A stretch of DNA of 64,000 nucleotides from Arcticibacter pallidicorallinus (GTDB lineage Bacteria; Bacteroidota; Bacteroidia; Sphingobacteriales; Sphingobacteriaceae). Position 1 is the stretch's first letter; each line of letters begins with the position of its first letter. The notes under the pieces are model-generated. The model saw only the letters and a list, made by a program, of their open reading frames with translations. It was not told where the DNA came from and ran no database searches. Where the stretch lies: positions 1 to 64,000 of the forward strand of contig NZ_PVTH01000002.1 of the NCBI RefSeq assembly GCF_003002875.1. The letters are read 5' to 3'. The position numbers and the translations under genes were made by a program. Shown here one piece after another: positions 13,431-43,708 of the stretch.

Positions 13431-13448
13431 CCTCCGATAACGTTTGCG
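13431..13448 (-). promoter_or_regulatory. Candidate LacI-family operator, site 3
   Basis: Read on the minus strand the site is CGCAAACGTTATCGGAGG. It matches GCAAWCGTTNYCG but differs from sites 1 and 2 at two core bases. It lies 170 bases upstream of the GH28 start, in the 291-base gap that holds the kduI terminator and presumably the promoter of the large galacturonate operon. Confidence 0.35.
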
Positions 13449-26911: not shown

Positions 26912-29900
26912 ATGTTCGCGAGGACTTTTACATTTATTTCCGGCCTGCTTTGCTGCGTAGCGGTCTGGGCGCAATCTCCTAAGTACCAGTTTTCGCAATT
27001 GAACATTTCTTCCGGCCTTTCACATAACCAGATAAACAGTATTTTAAAGGACAGCAAAGGTTTCATGTGGTTCGGTACACTATCTGGCCTGAACAGATAC
27101 GATGGCTATACCTTTAAGGTATTCAAATGTGTCGCAAGCGACTCAACCACAATAAGCGATGACAACGTCTTGAATATCCAACCCGGGCCCGATAAGAAAA
27201 TTTGGATAAACACCCGCGCGGGTTATGCAATTTATGACCCTGAGAAGGAGACTTTCGATAGAAACCCGCAAAAGTATCTGGATTCCAAAGCAATCAAAGG
27301 TTCATTGACGGATATTCGGGGTAATGGGAAAGGTCTCTTTTATGTGATCACATCAGCAGGCTTGTACGAGATTGATGAGAATAGTTCGAGGGCGAGACTA
27401 ATAGTAAGAGCTGGTTCATATCCGTTTACATCTGTCGCAATAGCTAGTAGCGGTTCTATATGGACATCAGATGCATCGGGGAAAGTCGAACAGTATACCG
27501 CTGGAGCTCATTCAAGAGTTTACAGCAAGCGGATTGCCGATGCAGCTAACTACAAAATCTTTATCGATAGGGATGACGATGTATGGGTCTATTCGGTAGA
27601 TAAGCCGAAAGGTGTATATCTGATAAGCATGACCGATCTATCTGTAAAACGTTATTCCATAACTAGTCTCCCAAGACTGAATACCAATAATATTTATAGC
27701 GTCAATCAAGATGAGAAAGGGATCATGTGGCTCGGAACAGATCATGGGGGCATCAATCTTCTGGATAAGAGAAGAAATTCGTTGAGCTTCCTGGTGAGTC
27801 GCGAAGCTGATGAAAAGAGCATCGCTCAAAACAGCACACCTGTGATCTATAGAGATGATACAGGCATTATGTGGATAGGAACCTTCAAGAAGGGGTTGAG
27901 TTATTACCATGAAAGTATCATCAAATTTGCTCATTACAGGCATAATCCTTTAGAGATCAACAGCCTCCCCTACGATGACGTAAACCGATTCCTTGAAGAT
28001 AACTCGGGCAACCTATGGATTGGTACCAACGGAGGCGGACTGGTTTATTTTAACAGGAAGAAAAATACATTTAAAAGGTATCGGCATCGTCCCGGGGATA
28101 GAAATACACTCAGTAACGATGTGGTGGTAAGTCTATGGTTGGACAAAGACGGAATACTCTGGATCGGAACCTACTTTGGCGGGCTTGATTCTTTCGATGG
28201 CAAAAGATTCACTAATTACCGTCACAGTGAGAGCGATGCGTCCAGTCTTTCAGACGACCGTGTCTGGGAAATCATGGAAGACTCTGAGCGGAACCTCTGG
28301 GTGGGAACCTTACATGGCGGATTGGATCTGTTTGACAGGAAGACAAGAACCTTCAAACATTTTCGGTCTGGCGGACAGAACTCAGTGAAGTCTGATTATA
28401 TCAATGCATTGCTCGAGGATAAAGCCGGGAATATCTGGGTTGGAACGGATGCTGGAGTAGATGTTTTGCAGAGAAAGACAGGACGTTTCGAGCATTATTC
28501 TGGATCAAAACACGGGAAACTTGTTTTGGGCAACAACAATGTATTTTCCTTGATGGAAGACAGCAGGGGGCTTATCTGGATAGGAACCCAAGACGGAGTG
28601 ACGCTGTTTGATCCATCCAGCGCCAAATTCCAGGTTTTAAAGATTCAGAACGGCTTACCCGACAACACAATTCTTACGATTCTGGAGGATAAAAGCGGAC
28701 ATGTTTGGCTCAGTACGACTAAAGGGATTTCGCGACTTACGCTAAGTAATGGTGGCGACAACTGGAAGATTCGTTTCCAGAATTACGACGATCTTGATGG
28801 ATTGCAGGGCATGGAGTTTAATGAAAACGCTGCACTGAGAACTAGCCGCGGAGAACTTATTTTCGGCGGAGCAAACGGGTTCAATTTATTTGATCCGCAG
28901 ACTATTAAACAAAACGGGCTATCACCAGTAGTGGTTTTTACCGACTTTCAGTTGTTTAATACCAGTGTTAAACCCGGTCAGCTGATTAAGGGTAAGACTA
29001 TATTAGATAGATCAATATCTCTCACCGATGACATACAGCTGAACTATGATCAGAACTTTTTCTCCATAGAATTTGCGGCACTTAATTTCGCGAATGCAAC
29101 GAAGAGTAAGTATGAATATATGCTTGAAGGTTTTAACGACCGGTGGTTCACTACCAACAGTAAAGACCGCAAAGCAACTTTCACCAACCTGGATCCGGGA
29201 GAATACACCTTTAAGGTAAGGGCAGCCAATGATAATGGAGTATGGAGCTTAGGAGCAGTCTCTTTGAGAATCAAGATTTTACCGCCCTTTTGGAAAACGG
29301 CTCCCGCTTATTTTCTGTACTTTTTGGGGGTTTCGGGGTTTTTGTACTATCTGAGAAAGAGGGGGATAAAAAAGCTAAAAGCGCAGTTTGCGCTTGAGCA
29401 GGAACGTAAGTCGGCTCAGCAGATGCATGAGCTGGACATGATGAAAATCAAGTTCTTCACTAATGTAAGTCATGAATTCCGTACACCGCTGGCGCTGATC
29501 CTCGCGCCGCTAGACAAGCTACTCAAAGAGAATCCAGAAGAAAATGCTAAGATTCATTTAACGCTTATACAGCGAAACGCCAGGCGACTTCTTAATCTGG
29601 TAAATCAACTGTTGGACTTTAGGAAGATGGAAGTTAAAGAGTTGAAGCTGCAACTACTTGAAGGTGATGTTATTAGCTTTGTGTATGAGAGCTTCCAGTC
29701 TTTCACAGATCTGGCAGAGAAGAAAAATATACGTTACACCTTTCACTCGAATCTCAGCACATTTGTTGCAAACTTCGATCAGGACAAGCTGGAGCGTATT
29801 CTCTTCAATCTGCTGTCTAACGCTTTTAAATTCACTTCTGAAGGGGGGCAAATTAGTATGAGCGTGAACTGTGAGCTGATAGAAGATCAGACTTCCGATG

Positions 29901-31033
29901 TAGAAATCAGGATTGTAGATACCGGAATAGGGATTTCGGCTGATAAGCAGGACAAAATCTTCGAGCGGTTTTTCCAAAATGACGTTCCTGGCTCGATGGT
30001 CAATCAGGGGAGCGGTATAGGCCTTTCTATAACAAAAGAGTTTGTCCAGCTACATAAAGGAACCATACGAGTTGAGAGCGAACAGGGTAGGGGTAGTTGT
30101 TTTATTGTGAATCTACCCCTCATGCCTATATCTGCCAATGGAAGCAGCGCTTACTATCAGGATAAGTCGATTATAGTGAATAAGTTAGATTTGTGTCCGC
30201 GGAGCAACGACGAGAGGCAAATGAAAATCAGTCAGAAAAAGCCTACCATTTTGTTAATTGAGGACAACGACGACTTCCGGTTTTATTTGAAAGACAATCT
30301 CAAGCAGGTTTACAACATAGTAGAATCGACAAATGGCAAGTCTGGTTGGAACAAAGCCCTGGCAATGCATCCTGATCTGATCGTCTCAGACGTTAGTATG
30401 CCTGAACTGAACGGTATCGACTTCTGCGTTAAACTGAGGAGGGACAGCCGCACCAGTCATATTCCTATTATCTTGCTAACTGCCTTGGTTGGGGAAGAGC
30501 AGATTCTGCGCGGCATCGAAACGGGTGCTAACGACTACATGACTAAACCTTTCAACTTCGAAATTTTAATGTCTAAGATCAGAAACCTGCTTATCCGTCA
30601 GGAATCAATGCGAAAGACCTATCAGAGGCAAGTTGAAGTAAAGCCGACCGATATAGAGGTGGAGTCTGCAGATGAGCGTTTTATTCAGCAAGCACTGAGG
30701 ATTACCGAAAAAAATATTTGTAACTCCGATTTCTCCGTCGAGGAGTTTGCTAGAGAAATGTCCATGAGTCGGGTCGCCCTGTATAAAAGGCTTCTACATT
30801 TGACACGTCAAACTCCGATCGAATTTATCCGGAGCCTACGCCTCAAGAGGGCAGCAAGACTACTAGAAAAGTCACAACTTACCGTGGCTGAGATTGCCTA
30901 CGAGGCAGGCTTTAATAATCCGAAGGCCTTTGCTAAGTACTTTAAGGCTGAGTTCGGCATGCTTCCTTCATCTTACCTTAAAGCTCACTGTCTTCCGAGC
31001 AGGCCAGGGGAAGTGGAACAAGCTGATAAATAA
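26912..31033 (+). CDS. Hybrid two-component system sensor kinase/response regulator (HTCS)
   Basis: A 1373-residue single-chain regulator. In order: signal peptide (to about residue 20); a large periplasmic sensor of two beta-propellers with repeated GLxRYDG, DKxGxxWIGT-type motifs (to about residue 680); a Y_Y_Y domain (about 690-785); a membrane helix (about 797-815); HisKA with His854 in NVSHEFRTPL; HATPase (LLSNAFKFT, DTGIGIS, GSGIGLSI); a receiver domain with Asp1160 in IVSDVSMPELNG; and a C-terminal AraC-type helix-turn-helix ending near residue 1360. Such proteins bind an oligosaccharide in the periplasm and activate the adjacent locus. The neighbouring GH31-susCD operon, with tandem repeats in its promoter, is the likely target. 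Confidence 0.95.
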   Translation: MFARTFTFISGLLCCVAVWAQSPKYQFSQLNISSGLSHNQINSILKDSKGFMWFGTLSGLNRYDGYTFKVFKCVASDSTTISDDNVLNIQPGPDKKIWINTRAGYAIYDPEKETFDRNPQKYLDSKAIKGSLTDIRGNGKGLFYVITSAGLYEIDENSSRARLIVRAGSYPFTSVAIASSGSIWTSDASGKVEQYTAGAHSRVYSKRIADAANYKIFIDRDDDVWVYSVDKPKGVYLISMTDLSVKRYSITSLPRLNTNNIYSVNQDEKGIMWLGTDHGGINLLDKRRNSLSFLVSREADEKSIAQNSTPVIYRDDTGIMWIGTFKKGLSYYHESIIKFAHYRHNPLEINSLPYDDVNRFLEDNSGNLWIGTNGGGLVYFNRKKNTFKRYRHRPGDRNTLSNDVVVSLWLDKDGILWIGTYFGGLDSFDGKRFTNYRHSESDASSLSDDRVWEIMEDSERNLWVGTLHGGLDLFDRKTRTFKHFRSGGQNSVKSDYINALLEDKAGNIWVGTDAGVDVLQRKTGRFEHYSGSKHGKLVLGNNNVFSLMEDSRGLIWIGTQDGVTLFDPSSAKFQVLKIQNGLPDNTILTILEDKSGHVWLSTTKGISRLTLSNGGDNWKIRFQNYDDLDGLQGMEFNENAALRTSRGELIFGGANGFNLFDPQTIKQNGLSPVVVFTDFQLFNTSVKPGQLIKGKTILDRSISLTDDIQLNYDQNFFSIEFAALNFANATKSKYEYMLEGFNDRWFTTNSKDRKATFTNLDPGEYTFKVRAANDNGVWSLGAVSLRIKILPPFWKTAPAYFLYFLGVSGFLYYLRKRGIKKLKAQFALEQERKSAQQMHELDMMKIKFFTNVSHEFRTPLALILAPLDKLLKENPEENAKIHLTLIQRNARRLLNLVNQLLDFRKMEVKELKLQLLEGDVISFVYESFQSFTDLAEKKNIRYTFHSNLSTFVANFDQDKLERILFNLLSNAFKFTSEGGQISMSVNCELIEDQTSDVEIRIVDTGIGISADKQDKIFERFFQNDVPGSMVNQGSGIGLSITKEFVQLHKGTIRVESEQGRGSCFIVNLPLMPISANGSSAYYQDKSIIVNKLDLCPRSNDERQMKISQKKPTILLIEDNDDFRFYLKDNLKQVYNIVESTNGKSGWNKALAMHPDLIVSDVSMPELNGIDFCVKLRRDSRTSHIPIILLTALVGEEQILRGIETGANDYMTKPFNFEILMSKIRNLLIRQESMRKTYQRQVEVKPTDIEVESADERFIQQALRITEKNICNSDFSVEEFAREMSMSRVALYKRLLHLTRQTPIEFIRSLRLKRAARLLEKSQLTVAEIAYEAGFNNPKAFAKYFKAEFGMLPSSYLKAHCLPSRPGEVEQADK

Positions 31034-31059
31034 GCCTTTTCTGCAATCTTCGGGCGCTT

Positions 31060-31098
31060 GTTAACATTATCATACCTAAATGTTAACATTTCCATACC
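31060..31098 (+). repeat. Tandem direct repeats, candidate HTCS binding site
   Basis: GTTAACATTATCATACC (31060-31076) and GTTAACATTTCCATACC (31082-31098) agree at 15 of 17 positions and start 22 bp apart, about two helical turns. They end 21 bases before a -7-like box of the GH31 gene, taking the place of a -33 element. This arrangement suits an AraC-type activator dimer. Confidence 0.65.
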
Positions 31099-31119
31099 CT
31101 GCAGGGGATCGCCATCTTA

Positions 31120-31127
31120 TAGTTTTA
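31120..31127 (+). promoter_or_regulatory. Candidate -7 box of the GH31-susCD operon
   Basis: TAGTTTTA matches TAnnTTTG except for the last base and lies 40 bases before the GH31 start. The lack of a -33 and the upstream repeats suggest an activator-dependent promoter. Confidence 0.45.
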
Positions 31128-31167
31128 CAACACAAATTATAACCAGTATTTATCCTAACCAATTGCT

Positions 31168-34017
31168 ATGCACAAGAATATCTTAGTTGCTATCTTATTC
31201 TGTTCGTTATTTTCTGTATTTGTTTCTGCTCAAGACACTGACGTAAAGAAACTTAGTGACGGCGTCATTATCACCTTGAACGATAAAGCCGCTGCCCTGG
31301 GGCAGACTATAACACTCAAGGTTTTATCAGACAAGATCATCCGGGTCACTTCGGCTGCTTTGGGAGCGCCCACCCTACATAAGAGTCTGATGGTTTCTGA
31401 TAATTTGTTATCTGCAGGAACTCCCACCTGGGATATGACGCGAGACGCTGAAAAGATAACTCTTAAAACAAGTTCTATGCAGGCCGTTGTTAAATTAACT
31501 GATGGAATGATAAGTTTTACTGATGCAGCCGGTAAGCCAATCGTATCTGAACAGAGAAGGGATGCCGGTACTTTCATAGCAGACTCTCATTCCGGCGATT
31601 CGTTTTACAAAATTCGGCAGGGCTTTGAAGTGGGCGAGACTGAAGGCTTCTATGGGCTCGGCCAGCATCAGAATGGTGTAATGAATTATCGTGGTCATCA
31701 AGTTGAGCTGTTGCAGTATAATACGGATGTGGCCATTCCTTTTGTGATATCCACGAATAACTACGGTATACTTTGGGATAATTACTCCATCACAAAGGTA
31801 GGCGACGTCCGCACTTTTCGACCTTTGTCTGGCTTAAAGTTGTACTCAAAATCGGGGGAGGTTGGCTGGCTGACCGCTACTTATTCTGATCTGAAAGACA
31901 GTCGCAATACGATCAGTCGTGCCGAGTCAGATATTGATTATTCCTTTTTGAAGGATTTGAAAAACTTTCCGGATAGCTTTAAGCTCGTCAATGGTAAAGT
32001 CCGTTGGGAGGGCGATATCGAATCTCCTTATTCCGGTTTGCATACTTTTCTGTTTAAATATGCTGGCTATATCAAAATATGGGTAGATGGGAAGTTGCAG
32101 GCCGACAGATGGCGGCAGCCGTGGAACGCCGGTGCGATAGAGCTCCAGGTTCTTCTCGAGGATAAGCGCAAATACTCACTGGTAATTGAATGGTTACCAG
32201 ACGGCGGCGAATCATATTTGTCGTTTAAATGGCAAAGTCCAATACCTCAGAATGAAAAAAACGATTTTTCGTTCCTATCTGAGGCAGGAGACCAGGTGGA
32301 TTATTACTTAGTTTCAGGAAAAGACCTCGACGAAGTAATTGCGGGCTATCGCCTACTAACAGGGAAGGCGTCTATCGTACCTAAATGGGCCATGGGTTTC
32401 TGGCAAAGCCGCGAGCGATACAAGACCCAGGACGAAATCTTGAGCACAGTAAAGACTTTTCGCGACAGGAAGATTCCTTTGGATAATATTGTGCTGGATT
32501 GGTCTTACTGGGAAGAGAATCAATGGGGGAGTCAGGAATTCGATACGGAGCGTTTCCCTTCAGCTGAACAGATGATTTCCGATCTGCATGATAAGTACAA
32601 TACCAGGCTCATGATCTCTGTATGGCCGAAATTTTACGAAGGAACTGATGCTTATAATTCTTTTGCAAAAAAAGGGTGGCTATACAGACGTAACGTTGAA
32701 GACGGCAGGAAGGATTGGATAGCAAAGGGTTACAAGTCAACTTTTTATGACCCTTTTAATCCGGAAGCAAGGGTTGGTTTCTGGAACTTGCTGAATGATA
32801 AATTATACAAGAAGGGTATTGATGCCTGGTGGCTTGACGCAACAGAGCCGGATATACATTCCAATCTGTCTGTAGAAACACGAAAGAGCATTTTTACGCC
32901 ATCTCTTGGTTCAGGGGCCCGATATTTTAACGCTTTTCCATTGTTAAATGCAAAAGGGATCTACGAGGGTCAGCGTAAGGAAAATCCTAATGACAGGGTC
33001 TTCATCCTGACTCGTTCTGCTTATGGCGGCCTTCAACGCTATGCCACCGTTACCTGGAGCGGTGATATATCATCCCGCTGGCATGATATGCGAGATCAAA
33101 TTTCAGCAGGAGTAAACTTTTCTATGTCCGGACTTCCATACTGGGCCATGGATATCGGAGGCTTCTCCGTCGAACGCCGTTTCGAGAATGCTAAGGGAGA
33201 CGATTTGAAAGAGTGGCGCGAGATGAACACACGTTGGTATCAATTTGGTGCCTTTACTCCAGTTTTCAGAGTACACGGACAATTTCCATTCAGGGAGATT
33301 TATAATATTGCTCCCGAAGGCCATCCGGCGTACAGCAGTATGTTGTATTACAATAAGCTACGTTACCGCCTTATGCCTTACATCTATTCTCTGGCCGGGC
33401 AAGCTTACCATCAGCATTATACCATTATGCGTGGCTTGGTGATGGATTTTCCTCATGATGATGCTGTTAGGAATATCGATAATCAGTTTATGTTCGGGCC
33501 GTCGTTATTGATCAATCCAGTTTCAGAATATGAAGCGAGGAGCAGAAAGGTATACCTTCCTAAAGGAATTGGCTGGTATGATCTGTACACAGGAACCTAT
33601 TTTAAGGGCGGGCAAAACATCAATGCTGAGGCTCCTTATGAGAGAATGCCGCTCTTTGTAAAAGAGGGGTCTATTCTAACTTTCGGTCCGGAGCTGCAGT
33701 ATACCTCCGAAAAGCCTGCTGATCCCATCAGACTGTACGTGTACACCGGAAGAGATGCTTCTTTTAATCTCTATGAAGATGAAGGAACAAATTACAATTA
33801 TGAGAGGAATGCCTTTTCCAACATCCCTATAAGCTATAACGAAAAAGACAAGACGCTCACGATAGGGCAGCGGGAGGGCAGCTTCGAAGGAATGCTCCGG
33901 AACCGTACGTTCGAAATTTTCGTGGTGACTCCTCGCGCTAAACGTAGCTTATCTTTTGATTCGCCAGCAAAGCAAAAGCTGCGCTATAGCGGACAAAAGC
34001 TGAGCGTTAAAATCTGA
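31168..34017 (+). CDS. GH31 alpha-glycosidase with PA14 insert, probable alpha-xylosidase
   Basis: A 949-residue secreted enzyme (signal peptide MHKNILVAILFCSLFSVFVSA). An N-terminal beta-sandwich (GFYGLGQHQNGVMNYRG) is interrupted by a PA14-like domain at about residues 260-357. The (beta/alpha)8 catalytic domain follows, with nucleophile Asp557 in WWLDATEPD and acid/base Asp633 in WSGDISSRW; then the C-terminal beta domains. A PA14 insert at this place is known from alpha-xylosidases of xyloglucan loci, so I favour removal of terminal alpha-xylose from xyloglucan oligosaccharides; alpha-glucosidase is the alternative. It is the first gene of the operon with susC, 25 bases downstream. Confidence 0.88.
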   Translation: MHKNILVAILFCSLFSVFVSAQDTDVKKLSDGVIITLNDKAAALGQTITLKVLSDKIIRVTSAALGAPTLHKSLMVSDNLLSAGTPTWDMTRDAEKITLKTSSMQAVVKLTDGMISFTDAAGKPIVSEQRRDAGTFIADSHSGDSFYKIRQGFEVGETEGFYGLGQHQNGVMNYRGHQVELLQYNTDVAIPFVISTNNYGILWDNYSITKVGDVRTFRPLSGLKLYSKSGEVGWLTATYSDLKDSRNTISRAESDIDYSFLKDLKNFPDSFKLVNGKVRWEGDIESPYSGLHTFLFKYAGYIKIWVDGKLQADRWRQPWNAGAIELQVLLEDKRKYSLVIEWLPDGGESYLSFKWQSPIPQNEKNDFSFLSEAGDQVDYYLVSGKDLDEVIAGYRLLTGKASIVPKWAMGFWQSRERYKTQDEILSTVKTFRDRKIPLDNIVLDWSYWEENQWGSQEFDTERFPSAEQMISDLHDKYNTRLMISVWPKFYEGTDAYNSFAKKGWLYRRNVEDGRKDWIAKGYKSTFYDPFNPEARVGFWNLLNDKLYKKGIDAWWLDATEPDIHSNLSVETRKSIFTPSLGSGARYFNAFPLLNAKGIYEGQRKENPNDRVFILTRSAYGGLQRYATVTWSGDISSRWHDMRDQISAGVNFSMSGLPYWAMDIGGFSVERRFENAKGDDLKEWREMNTRWYQFGAFTPVFRVHGQFPFREIYNIAPEGHPAYSSMLYYNKLRYRLMPYIYSLAGQAYHQHYTIMRGLVMDFPHDDAVRNIDNQFMFGPSLLINPVSEYEARSRKVYLPKGIGWYDLYTGTYFKGGQNINAEAPYERMPLFVKEGSILTFGPELQYTSEKPADPIRLYVYTGRDASFNLYEDEGTNYNYERNAFSNIPISYNEKDKTLTIGQREGSFEGMLRNRTFEIFVVTPRAKRSLSFDSPAKQKLRYSGQKLSVKI

Positions 34018-34042: not shown

Positions 34043-37000
34043 ATGGAACGAATTACTACAAAGAAAGAAAGGAAAGTCCTGTTATGGGCATTCATATCCT
34101 TGATGCTGTGTAGCATCCAGGGATATACGCAGGTCCGTACCATCACCGGCAGGGTAGCCGGAGTATCAGATGGGCAGCCGGTACCTTCCGCAGCGGTAAA
34201 AGTAAAGGGTAAGCAGGGAGGTACCAGCACCAATTCACAAGGTACATTCAGCATCAGTGCAGCTACAGGAGATGTGCTTGAAATTACCTCAATAGGCTAC
34301 CAACGTAAAGAGGTGAGGGTAGGTCCGAGTAATGTGATTGATGTTCAGTTGGAAGATGATGTGAAGGCACTCGAAGAAGTGGTAGTAGTAGGTTATGGCG
34401 TTCAGAAAAAGAAGCTCGTGACGGGAGCTACAGCTCAGGTGAGGGGCGAAGATCTCCAAAAGCAGAGCACGACGAACGCTTTGCAGGCTTTGCAAGGGCA
34501 AGCTCCAGGAATTCAGATTGCTTCTACATCCGGACAGCCCGGAGAAAGTATGAGGGTAATTATCAGAGGTGTCGGTACGATAGGTAACTCCGGTCCGCTT
34601 TATATCGTTGATGGCGTACAGACGCCAAATATCAATTATCTGAACCCTTCTGACATTGAAGCGATCGATGTACTGAAAGATGCTGCCTCAGCTGCCATCT
34701 ACGGATCGCAGGCGGCTAACGGTGTTGTGTTGGTGACAACCAGAAGTGGTAAACGAGGGCAATCTGCATCCGTCACAATTGATTCTTACCTGGGTATGCA
34801 AGATGCTGCTCGTAAAGTCGAGATGTTAAACTCACAGCAATATGCTTCGATTATGAATGAAGCGGCCGTAAATGCAGGCAAGTTGCCCCGCTTTAGCCCT
34901 CAGCAGATTGCCGGAATGGGAGCCGGTACCAACTGGATAAATGAGATGTTTGTAAATGATGCGATCACCCAGAATCATGTTATAGGTGCTCAGGGTGGTG
35001 GCGAATCATCTACCTTTTCAACATCTTTATCTTACACCGGGCAGGAAGGGATAGTAGGAGGGAAAGATCTGTCCAACTATGATCGTTATAATTTTCGGAT
35101 AAACTCTGAGCATAATCTCTATAATGATCTATTGAAAGTCGGACAACATTTGACATTTAATTACATCACCAGCAACGGTATTGGCGTGGGTAACCAGTAT
35201 AGCAACTCGCTGAGAGGAGCTTTCAATACCAGTCCTTTTGTGCCTATGTATGATGAAGCAGGTAATTTTTTCAACAACAAAAATTCGACCTGGTATAATG
35301 GTGAGTCTAACCCTTACGCCGCGATGGTGTACGGCAACCAGAATGACCGGAATAACCAACGACTTATTGGAGACCTGTATCTGGAAGTTGAGCCTATTAA
35401 AAATCTGAAGTTTCGAACTAGCCTGGGCATCGATTATTTTGCAGAAGAGAGCCGGTCTTTTACTCCAATTTATGAGCTGTCTATTTATTCATTCAGTGAT
35501 TTGACGAGGGTAGACCAATCCATGGGGAAAGGGAAGACTTTGTTATTTGATAATTTGTTGAGCTATAATTTTAATGTCAACACCGATCACCATATTGAGT
35601 TGCTGGCGGGATCGTCAACGTTCCAGTCTGATCGTTCGGTGATCTGGGGGGTGAATACTGATCTTATTTTTAATGATTTGCAACATGCATGGCTATCTAA
35701 TGCATTGAATACAAACGGGGCAACAATTTCAGTAGGAGGCGGACCGACCAACCGTCCCGGTAACCAAGGTCCTACTGTATTCGAAGAAAAGCGACTTTCA
35801 TACTTCGGGCGATTGAACTACAATTATAAAGAAAAGTACCTTTTAAACATGACATTCCGCGCAGACGGCTCGTCAAAGTTCTCCAAGGAGAATCGATGGG
35901 GTTATTTTCCCTCTGTGTCAGCAGGGTGGGTACTCACTAACGAGTCTTTCCTGGCTCCGACAAACAAGTGGCTGAACTTCCTCAAACTGAGAGCAAGCTG
36001 GGGACAGGTGGGTAATCAGAACATTATCGCTTTCCAATACCTTGCACCGGTTGTGTTTTCCAATACAAATTACAGTTTCGGTAATGCGGAAGGAGAACTT
36101 ACACCAGGCGCCTATCCGAGTAGGCTGGGTAATCCTGACCTGAAGTGGGAAACATCCGAGCAGCTTAACCTGGGATTTGATTCCCGCTTATTTCATGACA
36201 AAATTAATCTCACGTTCGACTGGTACACGAAAACCACCAAGGATTGGTTGATCGCTGCTCCTATTCTGGCAACAGCGGGCGCTGACGCGCCGTACATTAA
36301 CGGGGGTAATGTAGAAAATAAAGGTATAGAACTCGGACTTTCCTTCGACGGTGTTGCTGGTGACTTCAGGTATACTATCGGAGTAAACGGTGCTTACAAC
36401 AAAAATAAGGTTACAGAAATCCCGACATCTGATGGGATTATCCATGGCGCTACTAATCAGCTCTTTGACAATTCAGGCGAGTTTTACCGCGCGCAGACGG
36501 GATTTCCCATTGGCTACTTCTGGGGATTGACAACAGCGGGAATTTTCCAGTCTGAACAAGAAGTAAACGCTCACCGGTCATCTCAAAACCTGCTTATCCA
36601 GCCATCCGCTCAGCCTGGTGACGTTCGATACGTAGACTCGAATGACGATGGCATTATTAATGACCTTGACAGGGGTATGATTGGGGACCCAAATCCTGAC
36701 TATACCTATGGTATTAACCTGTCGGCCGGTTATAAAGGCTTTGACTTCTCGCTCCTCGCATCGGGCGTAGTCGGCAACGAAATTGTACAGTCTTACCGTA
36801 ATCAGGCGAATCAGTATGCCAATTATACCACTTCTATTTTAGGTCGCTGGCATGGACCAGGCTCATCGAATACATTACCAAGAGTGACCGAGAATTCAAC
36901 TAACTGGATCAACTTCTCTGATCTGTATGTACACCAGGGAGATTACCTGCGTATTAGCAACATTACTTTGGGTTATGATTTTGGAAAAGTGCTGAAGAAA

Positions 37001-37192
37001 GGTTATTTGCGTCAAGTAAGGATCTATGCATCAGCACAGAACCTTTACACATTTACCAAGTACACCGGAATGGATCCTGAGATTGGGTATGGAATTGATA
37101 ATGGAGAGAGAGACAGATTCTCATCTGGGATAGATCTCGGTTATTACCCCCGGCCGAGAACTTTTCTTTTGGGTGCTAACATTCGTTTTTAA
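34043..37192 (+). CDS. SusC-like TonB-linked outer-membrane transporter
   Basis: 1049 residues. In order: signal peptide (to about residue 29, QGYTQV), a carboxypeptidase regulatory-like domain (TITGRVAGVSDGQPVPSAAV), a Ton-box region (EEVVVVGYGVQKK near residue 110), a plug domain (RIRGVGTIGNSGPLYIVDG-type segment, to about 235) and a long beta-barrel ending in an aromatic residue (LLGANIRF). There is no N-terminal STN extension, so it is not an anti-sigma-factor-linked receptor. It imports oligosaccharides through the outer membrane together with the SusD-like lipoprotein encoded 17 bases downstream. Confidence 0.95.
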   Translation: MERITTKKERKVLLWAFISLMLCSIQGYTQVRTITGRVAGVSDGQPVPSAAVKVKGKQGGTSTNSQGTFSISAATGDVLEITSIGYQRKEVRVGPSNVIDVQLEDDVKALEEVVVVGYGVQKKKLVTGATAQVRGEDLQKQSTTNALQALQGQAPGIQIASTSGQPGESMRVIIRGVGTIGNSGPLYIVDGVQTPNINYLNPSDIEAIDVLKDAASAAIYGSQAANGVVLVTTRSGKRGQSASVTIDSYLGMQDAARKVEMLNSQQYASIMNEAAVNAGKLPRFSPQQIAGMGAGTNWINEMFVNDAITQNHVIGAQGGGESSTFSTSLSYTGQEGIVGGKDLSNYDRYNFRINSEHNLYNDLLKVGQHLTFNYITSNGIGVGNQYSNSLRGAFNTSPFVPMYDEAGNFFNNKNSTWYNGESNPYAAMVYGNQNDRNNQRLIGDLYLEVEPIKNLKFRTSLGIDYFAEESRSFTPIYELSIYSFSDLTRVDQSMGKGKTLLFDNLLSYNFNVNTDHHIELLAGSSTFQSDRSVIWGVNTDLIFNDLQHAWLSNALNTNGATISVGGGPTNRPGNQGPTVFEEKRLSYFGRLNYNYKEKYLLNMTFRADGSSKFSKENRWGYFPSVSAGWVLTNESFLAPTNKWLNFLKLRASWGQVGNQNIIAFQYLAPVVFSNTNYSFGNAEGELTPGAYPSRLGNPDLKWETSEQLNLGFDSRLFHDKINLTFDWYTKTTKDWLIAAPILATAGADAPYINGGNVENKGIELGLSFDGVAGDFRYTIGVNGAYNKNKVTEIPTSDGIIHGATNQLFDNSGEFYRAQTGFPIGYFWGLTTAGIFQSEQEVNAHRSSQNLLIQPSAQPGDVRYVDSNDDGIINDLDRGMIGDPNPDYTYGINLSAGYKGFDFSLLASGVVGNEIVQSYRNQANQYANYTTSILGRWHGPGSSNTLPRVTENSTNWINFSDLYVHQGDYLRISNITLGYDFGKVLKKGYLRQVRIYASAQNLYTFTKYTGMDPEIGYGIDNGERDRFSSGIDLGYYPRPRTFLLGANIRF

Positions 37193-37209: not shown

Positions 37210-38796
37210 ATGAAAACTTTAAAGATATATATGCTTTCTCTGGCTCTTTTATCGGCTGGGGGCTGCAAGGATTTCCTCGATGTAGAGCCCATCACATCGG
37301 TAACTGAAACCAATTATTACAAAACGCCCCAAGATGCATATAAAGCTTTAGTGGGTTGTTATGACGGGTTACAAACGGTGTGGGGAGAAGGGATGAGCTT
37401 TCCGGTTGCCTCTGAGATCATGTCTGATAATTGCTTCGGTGGAGGGGGAGCTTCAGATAGTTACAATTATCAGATGGTTGATGAGTTTGACAAGCTACGT
37501 TCGCCTTCCGATCAGAACAACTTTGGTCCGAACTGGATTGCTTACTACAAGGCTATCTATCGTGCTAATGTGTTGATTAGTAAGATGGATCAAATAGAGT
37601 GGGGCGCAGATGCAGCATTAAGGAGCATCTATGAATCTGAAGTACGGTTTTTAAGGGCTTACCTCTACTTTGATATGGTAAGGCTTTTCGGTAATATTCC
37701 GCTTCTCGTCAGCCCTTCGGCCGAGAATCTGTCACAGTCTGCTCCAGACGAGGTGTATAAAGTCATTGCGTCAGACCTGAAGTTCGCAGCCGACAATTTG
37801 CCTGCCATTGCCTACAACGCACAGCCAGTTGCTAACCATGGAAGGGTAACTAAGTACGCCGCGGCGGCATTGTTAGCCCGGGTGTTTCTTTATTATACCG
37901 GATATTATGCAAAACCTGACCTTGTTGGCCTAGTTAGTAAAGCAGAGGCTCTTGCCTATCTGGAAAATATCATTTCCACCGGGGGGTACAGTCTGGTAAG
38001 CAATTTTGCTAATCTATGGCCTTCATCTTTAACAGCCTACGAAGGCGAAGATAACAAGGAAACGGTATTTGCGATAAAATATACCTATACCAGTGATTAT
38101 GATGGAAATACCGATGGAAACCACTGGATGGTCATGTTTGGAATGCGCGAGCAGTTTGTTTTTCCTTACGGAAATGGCTGGGGATTTGGCACGGTAAATC
38201 CGAAGCTTTATAATGCTTACACCGCCAGCGATAGTCGTAGGGCACCTTCAATAATTGCCGTAGCCGCGGAGAATGTTGGCTTCACAAACCAAAGCAAGCA
38301 AAGAGAATATTCCGGATTTTACGTTGAAAAGTATTCACCCCTGGTAGATGAGGCAGGGAATAGTGTTTCAGTAAACAAAGGTGCAGTTAACTTTATGATC
38401 GGCCAGTTTCAGGACTATGTTTCCATACGCTACTCTGATGTCTTGTTGATGGCTGCGGAACTAGGAAGTGCAAACGCACAAACGTATTTTGATGATGTCA
38501 GAAAACGTGCTTATCAGGAGGCGTTCACTCCGCTGCCCGTTACGCAAGATAACCTTATGAAAGAGCGGCGATTAGAGTTTGCTTTTGAGGGTATACGCTA
38601 TTGGGACCTTCTGCGACGTGGTGTTAACGTTGCTGCGCAGGAAATTGCAGAAAATACAACCCTGCTGAGTGCCGGTCAGAGTGCTCCGAAAGTTATATCT
38701 GCATCTAAAATTGTGGAGACGGGAGGATTGCAGCAAATTCCCTATACGCAGATTACGCTGTCTGACGGTGTTTTAAAACAGAACCCAGGTTGGTAA
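37210..38796 (+). CDS. SusD/RagB-like surface glycan-binding lipoprotein
   Basis: A 528-residue lipoprotein with a lipobox ending in Cys19 (LLSAGGC) and then KDFLDVEP, the common SusD start. The helical TPR-like core contains FLRAYLYFDMVRLFGNIPL, and the C-terminal RLEFAFEGIRYWDLLRRG is the family hallmark. It caps the SusC-like barrel and binds the incoming glycan. It is encoded directly after susC. Confidence 0.95.
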   Translation: MKTLKIYMLSLALLSAGGCKDFLDVEPITSVTETNYYKTPQDAYKALVGCYDGLQTVWGEGMSFPVASEIMSDNCFGGGGASDSYNYQMVDEFDKLRSPSDQNNFGPNWIAYYKAIYRANVLISKMDQIEWGADAALRSIYESEVRFLRAYLYFDMVRLFGNIPLLVSPSAENLSQSAPDEVYKVIASDLKFAADNLPAIAYNAQPVANHGRVTKYAAAALLARVFLYYTGYYAKPDLVGLVSKAEALAYLENIISTGGYSLVSNFANLWPSSLTAYEGEDNKETVFAIKYTYTSDYDGNTDGNHWMVMFGMREQFVFPYGNGWGFGTVNPKLYNAYTASDSRRAPSIIAVAAENVGFTNQSKQREYSGFYVEKYSPLVDEAGNSVSVNKGAVNFMIGQFQDYVSIRYSDVLLMAAELGSANAQTYFDDVRKRAYQEAFTPLPVTQDNLMKERRLEFAFEGIRYWDLLRRGVNVAAQEIAENTTLLSAGQSAPKVISASKIVETGGLQQIPYTQITLSDGVLKQNPGW

Positions 38797-38830: not shown

Positions 38831-40198
38831 ATGATACGCTTTAATAAAATATGGAAAACTCTCCTTTTGCCATTCATCGTCATGATGTCATGCCAGAAGG
38901 AGAATTATAATTTGGAGCCGGCGATAGACAAGTCGGGCGTAAAATTCACCGTAGTTCAGGATTTAGCTGTGGACCCTGGAGGTAATACAGTGATCCTTAC
39001 AAATGAGACCCAGGGTGTCCTGCCGATATGGGATTACGGCACGGGGCGGTCTACCAGAATGCGAGATACGGTCAGGTTTGCCTTTAAAGGGAATTATATG
39101 GTCAAATTCTCAGTACTTTCCGGCGGGATGGAGGTTAAGATGGACTCCGTTCCTATTGTGGTTTCTGCTGACAATCTGAGCTACGTCCAGGATAAGGAAT
39201 GGATTGACCTGACTGGCGGACCTGGTAACGAGAAAGTCTGGCTGTTGGATACGGAGGGTAAAATGGGCGCAGGGCCGATAACATTTCTTAACCCCGCTAA
39301 CTTAAGCGAGGTATGGTGGTGGCCCGGACCAGCGGATGTTTATCCCGGTGTTATGGCGCCGGGTGATTACGGCTCAATGACTTTCAGCCTCATGGGCGGG
39401 CCTTTCTTCAGAAACGAGAAGCTAATAGAAGGAGGGATGAAGGAAAATGGAACTTTCTCTCTGAGCATCGCAACAAAAACGCTTACGCTCAATGGCGCAA
39501 CCATCCTGCGTTCGTACAAGCCTTCCAAAAACGGAATTACAGGTGTAAGCAACTGGTCTAAATACGACATAATAGAGGTGAGCGAGAATAGTCTTCGCCT
39601 GGGAGTCTTACGCGACAAGGACGTCGATGGGGAAGGTCCTGCTATTTTAGTCTATAATTTCATTTCGAAAGAATATTCAGATAACTGGGTTCCTGTGGAA
39701 ACCGGCCCGGATGAAGGTTTTAATCCGACGTTTAAGCGCGGGGAACTGCTAAGTATGCTGGCGGGCAGCAGTGCGTCTGGAAGAATCTGGCTCCTGGATG
39801 GCAGCGGTAATGCGGTTGACTGGATTGGAAAGGGCAAGGGCTGGACAAAGTCGTCAAACGACTCAAGAGACTGGGGCTGGAATGACTCCTGGGATGCGGT
39901 AGCCGGCAACTCCTGGATTTTGTTTGATCGCCTTGGTGGTCAAAATTATACCCGTAATCAAAATGGTATTTACACAAGAGGGCAGTTCACCATCAATGAG
40001 GAAACGAATGAAGTGACCTTGGTTGGTAACACGCTTATTCAAAATCCGGATAGTTGGATGAACCCGGTAAAAAATGTGTTTAAGGTTGTTAAGGCTTTCC
40101 CAGGCAAGGAAGCTAGCAAAGGCATCTGGTTGGGTACTTCCTATACTGCTGAAAAGGATGAATGGTTTGCGTTTCATTATGTGTTAGGTTCAAAGTAA
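38831..40198 (+). CDS. Surface glycan-binding lipoprotein of the PUL (SGBP-like)
   Basis: A 455-residue lipoprotein (lipobox Cys at MMSC, about residue 21). After a PKD/Ig-like N-terminal part (about residues 35-120; WDYGTG, RFAFKGNYMVKFSV) there are two similar regions with KVWLLD and RIWLLDGSG, each followed by WG/WND aromatic clusters, suggesting an internal duplication of a sugar-binding beta-sandwich. It occupies the SusE/F or SGBP position after susD. There is no catalytic motif. The ligand is unknown, but the tryptophan-rich stretches (EVWWWPGP, WGWNDSWD) suit glycan stacking. Confidence 0.8.
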   Translation: MIRFNKIWKTLLLPFIVMMSCQKENYNLEPAIDKSGVKFTVVQDLAVDPGGNTVILTNETQGVLPIWDYGTGRSTRMRDTVRFAFKGNYMVKFSVLSGGMEVKMDSVPIVVSADNLSYVQDKEWIDLTGGPGNEKVWLLDTEGKMGAGPITFLNPANLSEVWWWPGPADVYPGVMAPGDYGSMTFSLMGGPFFRNEKLIEGGMKENGTFSLSIATKTLTLNGATILRSYKPSKNGITGVSNWSKYDIIEVSENSLRLGVLRDKDVDGEGPAILVYNFISKEYSDNWVPVETGPDEGFNPTFKRGELLSMLAGSSASGRIWLLDGSGNAVDWIGKGKGWTKSSNDSRDWGWNDSWDAVAGNSWILFDRLGGQNYTRNQNGIYTRGQFTINEETNEVTLVGNTLIQNPDSWMNPVKNVFKVVKAFPGKEASKGIWLGTSYTAEKDEWFAFHYVLGSK

Positions 40199-40265: not shown

Positions 40266-42695
40266 ATGTTCAAAGTTTTGCTTTTACTGGTTCTTTGTGT
40301 TTCGCAAACGCTGTTTGCCGGCGAGCTCCCCCGGCAGGTTATTGACTTCAATCATTCCTGGAAGTTTCATCTGGGAGATGTTCCTGAAGCTTCAAATCCC
40401 TTGTTTAAGGATGATGCCTGGCGATCGTTGAACTTGCCCCACGATTGGAGCATTGAAGGCGATTTTAGTAAAATTCACCCTGCTACGCCGGGTGGCGGGG
40501 CTCTGCCGGGAGGGATCGGCTGGTACCGCAAGAGTTTTGATGTTCCGGCATCGGACAAGAGCCGTATACTGTATATAGATTTCGATGGGGTATATCAAAA
40601 CAGTGAAGTCTGGATAAACGGTCACCACCTCGGCAAGAGACCTAATGGATATATTTCATTCAGGTACGAATTGTCCCGCTTTCTGCGATTCGGCAAGAGA
40701 AATGTTATCTCTGTGAAGGTGGATAACTCCCGGCAGCCTAACTCAAGATGGTATTCGGGATCGGGGATTTACCGGAGGGTTCGCCTCGTCAAGGTAAATC
40801 CTTTACATGTGCCTCAGTACGGTACTTTCGTGACAACTCCTGTTGTTTCTAAAGAGCGGGCAGACGTTTCGATAGAAACAACCGTTCTGAATGCTTCCGA
40901 TAAAAGAGCTGCGGTGAAATTAAATACGATAATCAGAGATGGCGAAGGAGTAGAAGTTACCTCTGTCTGGCATACTCAGCCAGTTGAGCCTGGAAAATCT
41001 GTACTTTTCAATCAAAAAACGGAGCTTTTAAATCCGCAGTTATGGTCGGTTGAAACGCCAGAGCTATATACCGGGGTGAGTCGCATATACATAGGCAATA
41101 AGTTGATGGATACCTATGAAACGAAGTTTGGTATTCGGACATTCCATTTTGACTCTGAAAAAGGTTTTACGCTGAATGGGGTTCCGGCCAAGATCCAGGG
41201 AGTTTGTAATCATCATGATTTAGGAGCACTTGGCTCTGCGTTTAACAGGCGTGCAGCGGAACGTCAATTGGAGATCCTAAAGGGAATGGGTTGTAACGGC
41301 ATTCGTACAGCTCATAACCCTCCTGCACCTGAGCTTCTCGAGCTCTGCGACAGGATGGGCTTTATCGTGATGAATGAAGCTTTTGACATATGGAAGAAGC
41401 AGAAGAATCTTTTCGATTATCATCTCGATTGGGAACAGTGGCACCGGAGGGATTTGGAGGACTTGGTCCGCCGTGACAGAAATCATCCCAGCATTTTTGT
41501 GTGGAGTGTCGGAAATGAGATTCAAGAGCAATGGGGAGACGAGGCGAAAGGTGATACTGTAGGGCGGGTGATTGCACGGGAACTTATCGCAATTGTCAGA
41601 GATCTGGACACTACCCGTGCGATTACCACGGCTAATAACGAGATAAATACATATAACAACCTGCTTAAATCCGGTGCCTTCGACTTGATCGGGTATAACT
41701 ACAACCATCGGCTTTGGAAAGATTTTCATAAGCGCTGGCCAGGGAAGAAGTTGGTCGTGACGGAAAGTACATCAGCTTTACAAACGAGAGGGCATTATGA
41801 TTTGATTCCTTTTGATACTATTCGCCGGTGGCCGGAGGCTTGGGATAAGCCTATCAAAGGGGGAGGGAATACAGACTTTACGGTTTCTGCATACGATCAT
41901 GTAAGCGCGCCCTGGGGTTCCACGCATGAGGAAAGCTTAAAAGAGCTTCATTATAGTCCCCATGTTTCTGGTATGTATGTATGGACTGGTTTTGATTATC
42001 TGGGCGAACCGACTCCATATACCTGGCCGGCCAGAAGCTCTTACTTTGGTATTGTGGATCTGGCAGGTTTCCCAAAGGATGTGTATTGGCTTTATAAAAG
42101 TGTGTGGACGGAAAAGCCCGTGCTTCATGTTTATCCGCACTGGAACTGGAAGGCAGGCGACACTGTGGATGTTGTGGCTTACTATAGTCAGGCCGATGAG
42201 GTCGAACTCTTTCTGAATGGAAAATCGCTTGGCTCTAAAAACAAAACTGGTCGTGTCATGCATGTAAAGTGGCGTGTGCCCTTTGAAAACGGGCATTTAT
42301 ATGCTGTTTCACGGAAGCAGGGGGCGGAGGTTTTAACAAAGGAGCTTCACACAGCCGGTAAGCCTGCTAAAATTGAGCTGATTGCAGACAGAAGTAGTAT
42401 CGGGGCAGATGGAAAGGATCTTTCTTTTATCACTGTTAAGATTCTGGACGATGAGGGAATTGTCGTACCGTCTGCGGACAATCTGATCAAATTTAAGGTG
42501 ACGGGACAGGGATTTCTGAATGCCGTGGATAATGGCAGTCCAACCAGCCACGAGCGGTTCAAGACTGACAGCCGAAAGGTCTTTAACGGGCTGGCTCTCG
42601 CAATTGTTCAGTCGTCTGGAGCAATAGGCGATATTAAGGTAGAGGCAACGTGTGCAGATTTACAGTCGGCTAAACTTGTTATAAAGGCTCAGTAG
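40266..42695 (+). CDS. Secreted GH2 glycosidase, probable beta-galactosidase
   Basis: An 809-residue enzyme with a signal peptide (to about residue 18, LFAGE). In order: the sugar-binding jelly roll (PHDWSIEGDF, GIGWYRKSF), Ig-like domain, (beta/alpha)8 barrel with acid/base Glu418 in WSVGNEIQEQ and nucleophile Glu500 in VVTESTS, a DUF4982-like domain (EVELFLNGKSLGSK) and a C-terminal Ig-like domain (IELIADRSSIGADGKDLSFI). This architecture is that of many PUL beta-galactosidases, including those of xyloglucan loci. Other GH2 activities such as beta-glucuronidase cannot be excluded. Confidence 0.88.
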   Translation: MFKVLLLLVLCVSQTLFAGELPRQVIDFNHSWKFHLGDVPEASNPLFKDDAWRSLNLPHDWSIEGDFSKIHPATPGGGALPGGIGWYRKSFDVPASDKSRILYIDFDGVYQNSEVWINGHHLGKRPNGYISFRYELSRFLRFGKRNVISVKVDNSRQPNSRWYSGSGIYRRVRLVKVNPLHVPQYGTFVTTPVVSKERADVSIETTVLNASDKRAAVKLNTIIRDGEGVEVTSVWHTQPVEPGKSVLFNQKTELLNPQLWSVETPELYTGVSRIYIGNKLMDTYETKFGIRTFHFDSEKGFTLNGVPAKIQGVCNHHDLGALGSAFNRRAAERQLEILKGMGCNGIRTAHNPPAPELLELCDRMGFIVMNEAFDIWKKQKNLFDYHLDWEQWHRRDLEDLVRRDRNHPSIFVWSVGNEIQEQWGDEAKGDTVGRVIARELIAIVRDLDTTRAITTANNEINTYNNLLKSGAFDLIGYNYNHRLWKDFHKRWPGKKLVVTESTSALQTRGHYDLIPFDTIRRWPEAWDKPIKGGGNTDFTVSAYDHVSAPWGSTHEESLKELHYSPHVSGMYVWTGFDYLGEPTPYTWPARSSYFGIVDLAGFPKDVYWLYKSVWTEKPVLHVYPHWNWKAGDTVDVVAYYSQADEVELFLNGKSLGSKNKTGRVMHVKWRVPFENGHLYAVSRKQGAEVLTKELHTAGKPAKIELIADRSSIGADGKDLSFITVKILDDEGIVVPSADNLIKFKVTGQGFLNAVDNGSPTSHERFKTDSRKVFNGLALAIVQSSGAIGDIKVEATCADLQSAKLVIKAQ

Positions 42696-42787: not shown

Positions 42788-43708
42788 ATGAAAGGATTCT
42801 GTTCTCTCCTGCTATTGTTTTTAACTTTTTCTGCCCTTGCCCAAGACGATAAAATTTATATGTTTTCCTATTTCAAAGGTAATGGGGAAGACGGTTTGCA
42901 TCTTGCATACTCTAGAGATGGTTACAAATGGGAGGCCTTGAAAGATGATCAGCCTTTCCTGTCACCTCAGGTTGGTAAAGATAAACTTATGCGCGATCCT
43001 TGTATAATAAGAGGAGGAGATGGGAAATTTCACATGGTTTGGACTGTTAGCTGGACGGATAAGGGTATTGGCTACGCCACCTCGGTAGATCTGGTTAACT
43101 GGTCCGATCAGAAGTTTATTCCTGTGATGCAACATGAAGAAGGTGCCAGAAACACCTGGGCACCTGAGATTACCTACGACAGTAAGTCGAAGACGTATAT
43201 GATTTACTGGGCAACTACGATAAGTGGGCGTTTTCCGGAGACTCAGGTGACCGCAGATGATGGTTATAATCACCGCATGTATTACGTTACTACCAGCGAT
43301 TTTGAATCCTTCAGCGACACGAAGTTGTTATACGACCCCGGCTTTAATGTTATAGATGCGTCTATCGTTAAGAATGGGAAGAGATGGGTCATGTTTCTTA
43401 AAGATGAAACACGTGAGCCTGCACAAAAAAATTTAAAATTAGCTTTTGCTAAACATCTTACCGGCCCATATACAAAGGCGGGTGAGCCGATCACTGGCAA
43501 TTACTGGGCTGAAGGGCCTACGGTACTCAGGCAGGGAAAGCGATGGCTTGTTTTTTTTGATAAATACAGAGATCATAGGTATGGAGCTATTGCCTCAACC
43601 GATTTAAATAGCTGGGAGGATGTGTCAGAGAAGATAAGTATGCCTAAAGGAATCAGACATGGCACCATCTTCACGATAACAGAAGCAGAATTTGCGAAGA
43701 TCAAGTAG
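42788..43708 (+). CDS. Secreted GH43-like five-bladed propeller glycosidase
   Basis: A 306-residue protein with a signal peptide (to about residue 19, SALAQ). The pattern MRDPCII with Asp70, NTWAPEITYD, and YWAEGPTV with Glu242 as probable general acid fit GH43/clan F. The catalytic base expected near the N-terminus is not clear: the place holds GNGEDGLHLAYSRDG, without a classic ADP motif. The activity may be alpha-arabinofuranosidase or beta-xylosidase/galactosidase. It is encoded 92 bases after GH2 on the same strand. Confidence 0.78.
   Translation: MKGFCSLLLLFLTFSALAQDDKIYMFSYFKGNGEDGLHLAYSRDGYKWEALKDDQPFLSPQVGKDKLMRDPCIIRGGDGKFHMVWTVSWTDKGIGYATSVDLVNWSDQKFIPVMQHEEGARNTWAPEITYDSKSKTYMIYWATTISGRFPETQVTADDGYNHRMYYVTTSDFESFSDTKLLYDPGFNVIDASIVKNGKRWVMFLKDETREPAQKNLKLAFAKHLTGPYTKAGEPITGNYWAEGPTVLRQGKRWLVFFDKYRDHRYGAIASTDLNSWEDVSEKISMPKGIRHGTIFTITEAEFAKIK

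Follow-up and report, generated by a model that had tools for sequence, protein, structure and literature searches.

Hybrid two-component systems (HTCSs) serve as the principal glycan switches in Bacteroidota, and few of their operators have been located. A similar arrangement is found in E. coli, where AraC at araI1-I2 occupies directly repeated half-sites of 17 bp, spaced by about two turns, with the proximal one at the upstream element of the promoter. The repeat pair described here resembles araI1-I2 in its direct half-sites about two helical turns apart and in the placement of the proximal one at the expected upstream promoter element. The settings differ, however, since E. coli AraC is a soluble protein with an arabinose arm and a sigma-70 promoter (-35/-10), whereas our locus combines an HTCS with a Bacteroidota promoter of the -33/-7 type.

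Similar systems are described in gut bacteria. The site descriptions of Ravcheev 2013 (PMC3878776) include predicted direct repeats for 16 of the 36 B. thetaiotaomicron HTCSs, at an average distance of 21 bp, and the proposal that HTCS dimers bind on one DNA face, two turns apart. Further, the binding experiments described in PMC11253607 show by EMSA that HTCS receiver-DBD fragments bind the bt4114 and bt4662 susCD promoters, which contain predicted sites. The pair in our locus shares with the B. thetaiotaomicron operators the direct two-site repeat, the distance of about two helical turns and the location at a susCD-type promoter beside the HTCS gene, and in both cases related HTCSs share similar motifs (PMC3878776, site descriptions). 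On the other hand, it has another sequence, belongs to another bacterial family and shows a spacing of 22 instead of the average 21 bp; moreover, the site descriptions in PMC3878776 draw no relation to a -7 box, whereas in the clade studied here the offset to this box is fixed. In comparison to bt4114 and bt4662, regulators and sites are different, and the evidence is experimental there (PMC11253607) but comes from sequence comparison here. Since the operator kind is already known from these two studies, the pair is very probably a well-supported new example of it. Our search of the openly licensed literature turned up neither an HTCS motif from Sphingobacteriaceae nor a fixed distance between HTCS site and -7 box nor a clade-specific, turn-phased promoter geometry.

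The repeat pair and its locus

The window, by which we mean the whole analysed stretch of 64,000 nt of Arcticibacter pallidicorallinus DNA, contains the following features relevant to the repeat pair.

26912..31033, + strand: HTCS of 1373 aa, proposed binder of the repeats (Pfam, translation)
31034-31167: gap of 134 nt between the HTCS gene and the GH31 gene
31059..31076, + strand: upstream half-site TGTTAACATTATCATACC (sequence; present beside relatives)
31081..31098, + strand: downstream half-site TGTTAACATTTCCATACC, in register with the first at 22 nt and adjoining the place expected for the -33 region (sequence; present beside relatives)
31120..31127, + strand: -7 box TAGTTTTA, at offset 60 nt relative to the half-site 1 start (preserved in 33 regions, the window's among them)
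31168..34017, + strand: GH31 with PA14 domain, first gene of the proposed target operon (Pfam, structure match)
34043..37192, + strand: SusC-type TonB-dependent transporter (Pfam)
37210..38796, + strand: SusD-type protein (Pfam)
38831..40198, + strand: 455-aa protein with no Pfam match, presumably occupying the position of a surface glycan-binding protein
40266..42695, + strand: GH2 glycosidase (Pfam)
42788..43708, + strand: GH43-like arabinosidase with BT_3657-like N-terminal domain (Pfam)

The initial annotation placed an HTCS gene with an AraC-type end directly upstream of the repeats. Indeed, Pfam assigns to the product of 26912-31033 a Reg_prop propeller, Y_Y_Y, HisKA, HATPase_c and receiver domains, followed by HTH_18/HTH_AraC at the C-terminus. 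The solved structure nearest to the GH31 protein is the alpha-xylosidase BoGH31A (5jou, E 5.9e-297), followed by 7kmp and Xyl31A (2xvg), and a sodium:solute symporter gene stands after the GH43-like gene. The gene set of a xyloglucan locus is thus present (GH31 of the alpha-xylosidase type, GH2, GH43 and SusC/D under an HTCS), while no GH5 or GH9 endo-enzyme was found among the nine genes scanned at the locus. From its gene content, it would most naturally be read as a xyloglucan-type utilization locus.

The two 17-bp direct repeats noticed in the initial annotation, GTTAACATTATCATACC (31060-31076) and GTTAACATTTCCATACC (31082-31098), agree in 15 of 17 positions, in line with its coordinates and identity. 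Its distance of 22 bp holds when counted from start to start, as 5 nt lie between the 17-mers. A preceding T extends each to 18 nt, so that the half-sites as 18-nt words are identical in 16 of 18 positions at a start-to-start spacing of 22. When the 134-nt gap was shuffled with a first-order Markov model, a 15/17 match at any lag of 17-30 appeared in 8 of 20000 shuffles, and along the window such a pair was found in one of 954 segments of 134 nt, namely that of the HTCS-GH31 gap. The repeat had not been seen elsewhere in the window, and our scan agrees with this: there is no other good copy, but three further half-site matches with 3 mismatches each. Including both copies this makes 5 half-site matches, where 1.9 are expected and at least 5 were reached in 3 of 100 shuffles. 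A second pair, before the HTCS gene or elsewhere in the window, was not detected apart from a weak match at 13436 and an overlapping reverse match at 31087, which bears on the question of autoregulation. In the whole genome (4.1 Mb) the paired core has one perfect match, and one more with 3 mismatches, which equals the control count of 1. Single half-sites with at most 3 mismatches occur 144 times genome-wide as compared to 113 for the reversed control, a small excess.

According to the promoter description in PMC7366714, primary-sigma promoters of Bacteroidota consist of a -33 TTTG element and a -7 box TAnnTTTG. The sequence TAGTTTTA matches this -7 consensus in 7 of 8 positions and starts 21 nt after repeat 2, exactly as annotated initially. 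The stretch from repeat 2 to the box does not contain TTTG in the window, and the -33 element would be expected where repeat 2 ends. A perfect palindrome, CCCTGCAGGG, is present as well at 31097-31106, between that repeat and the -7 box; it is missing from the other genus orthologs compared.

Conservation of the pair beside HTCS relatives

Relatives of the HTCS were collected as matches from 6 genus genomes and 301 family genomes. For a blind test, in which no motif was given, 90 regions were used: those of the five genus orthologs, the window among them, another 25 loci, and the 60 entries that came next in list order; the best 17-nt self-match per lag of 10-44 was compared with 100 shuffles per region. 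The strongest lag was 22, with a summed z of 8.2 and z above 2 in 17 of the 90 HTCS 3' regions. Lags 10, 11, 15 and 21 were also raised (z 4.0, 3.8, 3.9 and 3.2), and the z values are uncalibrated. Expectation-maximisation on the same regions yielded the consensus GTTAACATTTG....CCTATTT..aACA with the box further down, and 56 of the 90 regions scored above 15.

For scoring, the best 80 named loci (from Mucilaginibacter, Pedobacter, Chitinophaga, Pinibacter, Dyadobacter, Solitalea, a few Bacteroidales and others) were added, which resulted in 153 distinct regions after those with identical first 200 nt were dropped. With a degenerate consensus derived from part of the same regions, a threshold of 18 and allowed spacings of 19-24, a pair was found in 93 of the 153 regions and in 6 of 765 shuffles. 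The spacing is 22 in 77 of these pairs and 21 in 16, so all 93 preserve the direct repeat at two helical turns that was proposed initially. The other 60 of 153 regions yielded no pair at threshold 18, perhaps because their operators have diverged or are located elsewhere. All five genus orthologs including the window have the pair at spacing 22, with consensus scores of 25 to 29 of 30. Consensus-free scoring returned spacing 22 for four of them and missed it in one (L012), where a 19-nt pair was picked; at this locus a third word resembling a half-site, GCGAACATTTCGTATGC, precedes the pair by 19 nt. Of 25 regions next to more distant HTCS paralogs from the genus, scoring was possible for 23, all of which stayed below 18. 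In the initially suggested search of related genomes, pairs were thus found beside relatives of this regulator and, at this threshold, beside none of the 23 distant paralogs, and the operator type appears to be specific to an HTCS subgroup.

A search for the repeats before other PUL genes had been proposed as well, and one such case exists. In the sister genome G002 of the genus, the PUL is collinear with that of the window except for one extra gene of 575 aa between HTCS and GH31. This genome harbours one pair after the HTCS gene (before the extra gene) and another directly before GH31. The third, which deviates from the pattern at 3 positions, lies on a different contig, immediately behind a GH9 gene and before GH31b-GH3, a glycosidase operon; the ORFs in the surrounding 9 kb include no HTCS. 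All three pairs have a box at exactly 60, and the reversed control pattern had no match in the 6 genus genomes. This unlinked site, with its 3 mismatches, stands alone as an example and is missing from the window's genome, in which neither GH31b nor GH9 of G002 was found at E 1e-60, so that this genome offers no second target. The inserted 575-aa ORF is located at L231:13468-15195 (- strand); it has its own operator copy and no Pfam match, and looks glycosidase-like by eye. Stricter near-consensus patterns detected 12 plus 6 sites in 201 family genomes, by their coordinates all beside the gene of this HTCS, with none for the reversed control. The site of the window itself escapes these narrow patterns, so this result says only that near-consensus sites are not scattered.

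Distance between the pair and the -7 box

The box pattern TAnnTT[TCA][AGC] was sought over 45 positions. Spacing-22 pairs have it at offset 49 in 35 regions and at 60 in 33 (window included), while 13 matches are at other offsets (35, 59, 55, 66, 65, 34). With a background density of 0.0056 per position, 0.43 matches are expected per offset in the 77 regions. The spacing-21 pairs (21-type) show the box at 58 in 14 of 16 and at 59 in one of 16. Altogether, 9 of 93 pairs fall outside the 49, 60 and 21-type box positions; in three of these nine, from Dyadobacter, CACATTTG can be read by eye at 60. The median pairwise identity of the spacers between repeat and box is 0.286 for the 60-type and 0.308 for the 49-type. 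Since composition alone gives 0.27, it is the distance that is kept, without the sequence.

The two main offsets are 11 nt apart, which corresponds to one helical turn, and the two types also differ in the sites themselves. In the 49-type, the proximal half-site retains only its 5' part, and between the two types ATACC gives way to CCCC in the 3' half-site portion. In a quick tree of 93 regulator C-terminal parts, the 49-type regulators form one side of a branch (SH-aLRT 99). The 60-type and the 49-type are separated by one change on this tree, and all four labels need 6 changes, as compared to 45.8 in shuffles. Eight of the 12 columns which best separate 60-type from 49-type regulators are at positions 74-90, in the region of the second HTH. 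This is what one would expect if the second HTH touched the half-site in its 3' part; however, because the types differ by one tree change, the HTH columns and the half-site change amount to a single event and not to a correlation.

Based on these observations, it is tempting to speculate that the HTCS of this clade fixes both the operator sequence and the promoter geometry, with two box positions one turn apart, a strictly phase-dependent contact to RNA polymerase and two contact modes separated by one ancestral switch; we consider this conceivable, with the odds somewhat against it. The 49 position would then be accompanied by the changes in the second HTH and by a proximal half-site that has lost its 3' part. 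For paralogs outside the clade, 13 of 25 regions contain some pair with at least 12/17 matches (spacing 22 in 5, 21 in 3 and other spacings in 5). Since a box at a matching offset was found for L026 only (offset 37 relative to where the second site begins), no general rule of spacing or offset is claimed for other HTCS families. L026, at the end of a distant HTCS gene, has its own pair, TGTAACTATAGTGAACT/TGCAACTATAGTGTACC, at 21 nt, and its box, 37 nt from the second start, is at the offset of the clade's 21-type.

Proposed operator function and its alternatives

We regard it as highly likely that the repeat pair is the operator of the adjacent HTCS, contacted by AraC-type domains arranged head to tail, with the proximal one by the -33 region. 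This reading is well supported because the paired words recur beside many relatives at set distances from the promoter. Those parts of the initial reading that are open to comparison all held, namely the direct repeat at two helical turns, the location just ahead of a -7 box and the association with the HTCS. Since the site adjoins the HTCS gene, its tracking of the regulator phylogeny may on the other hand reflect plain co-inheritance. By analogy with the HTCS family, the periplasmic propeller would sense a glycan fragment, probably derived from xyloglucan, and this would lead to phosphorylation of the receiver domain. The AraC-type domains of two subunits could then bind the half-sites head to tail on one DNA face, two turns apart. 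In the manner of a class II activator, the proximal subunit, beside the -33 region and 21 nt upstream of the -7 box, would recruit RNA polymerase, and the GH31-SusC-SusD-GH2-GH43 operon would be turned on.

Alternatively, the pair could serve another regulator acting in trans (another HTCS, a free-standing AraC or a LacI-type protein), while the adjacent HTCS controls something else. Each half-site contains a palindrome, TGTTAACA, that a symmetric dimer could read, and orphan cross-regulation among HTCSs exists in principle. However, the palindrome is broken in relatives, with GTTGACA in many 49-type sites and GGTTAAC in most genus orthologs, and despite this loss the asymmetric 3' part and the direct orientation are kept. 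Moreover, the near-consensus sites in the 201 genomes stand only beside this HTCS, and none was found in the 23 paralog regions, so that we judge such a regulator improbable.

An RNA element was considered too, in which the repeats in the HTCS transcript fold as a hairpin that attenuates or terminates readthrough. A 10-bp stem between TGTTAACATT and AATGTTAACA can form in the window's gap, with an energy (z -1.87) that 13 of 200 shuffles equalled. In relatives, nine of nine stem pairs are retained in 3 of 33 60-type sites and in none of 35 49-type sites, with paired cells at 62.6 percent and 56.2 percent, respectively. We found neither a terminator-like site nor an Rfam match, and the constant distance to a -7 box speaks for DNA located upstream of the start. 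The hairpin was rejected on account of the poorly kept stem pairing and the lack of terminator-like site and Rfam match; its chances are minimal. Short families of two copies are often due to chance and the repeat is unique in the window's genome, which would suit a fortuitous or decaying duplication without function. Against this stand the 8 of 20000 shuffles that were as good and the retention of the pair across genera with saturated flanks, which leave such an origin extremely unlikely.

With the pair as a candidate HTCS operator placed to the base, and with relatives that keep the promoter offset while the spacer sequence randomises, the key base pairs and the helical face become directly testable. 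The two geometries one turn apart provide a natural contrast for studying how an HTCS may touch RNA polymerase. Last but not least, the motif opens the way to reading the regulon in many Sphingobacteriaceae and their relatives.
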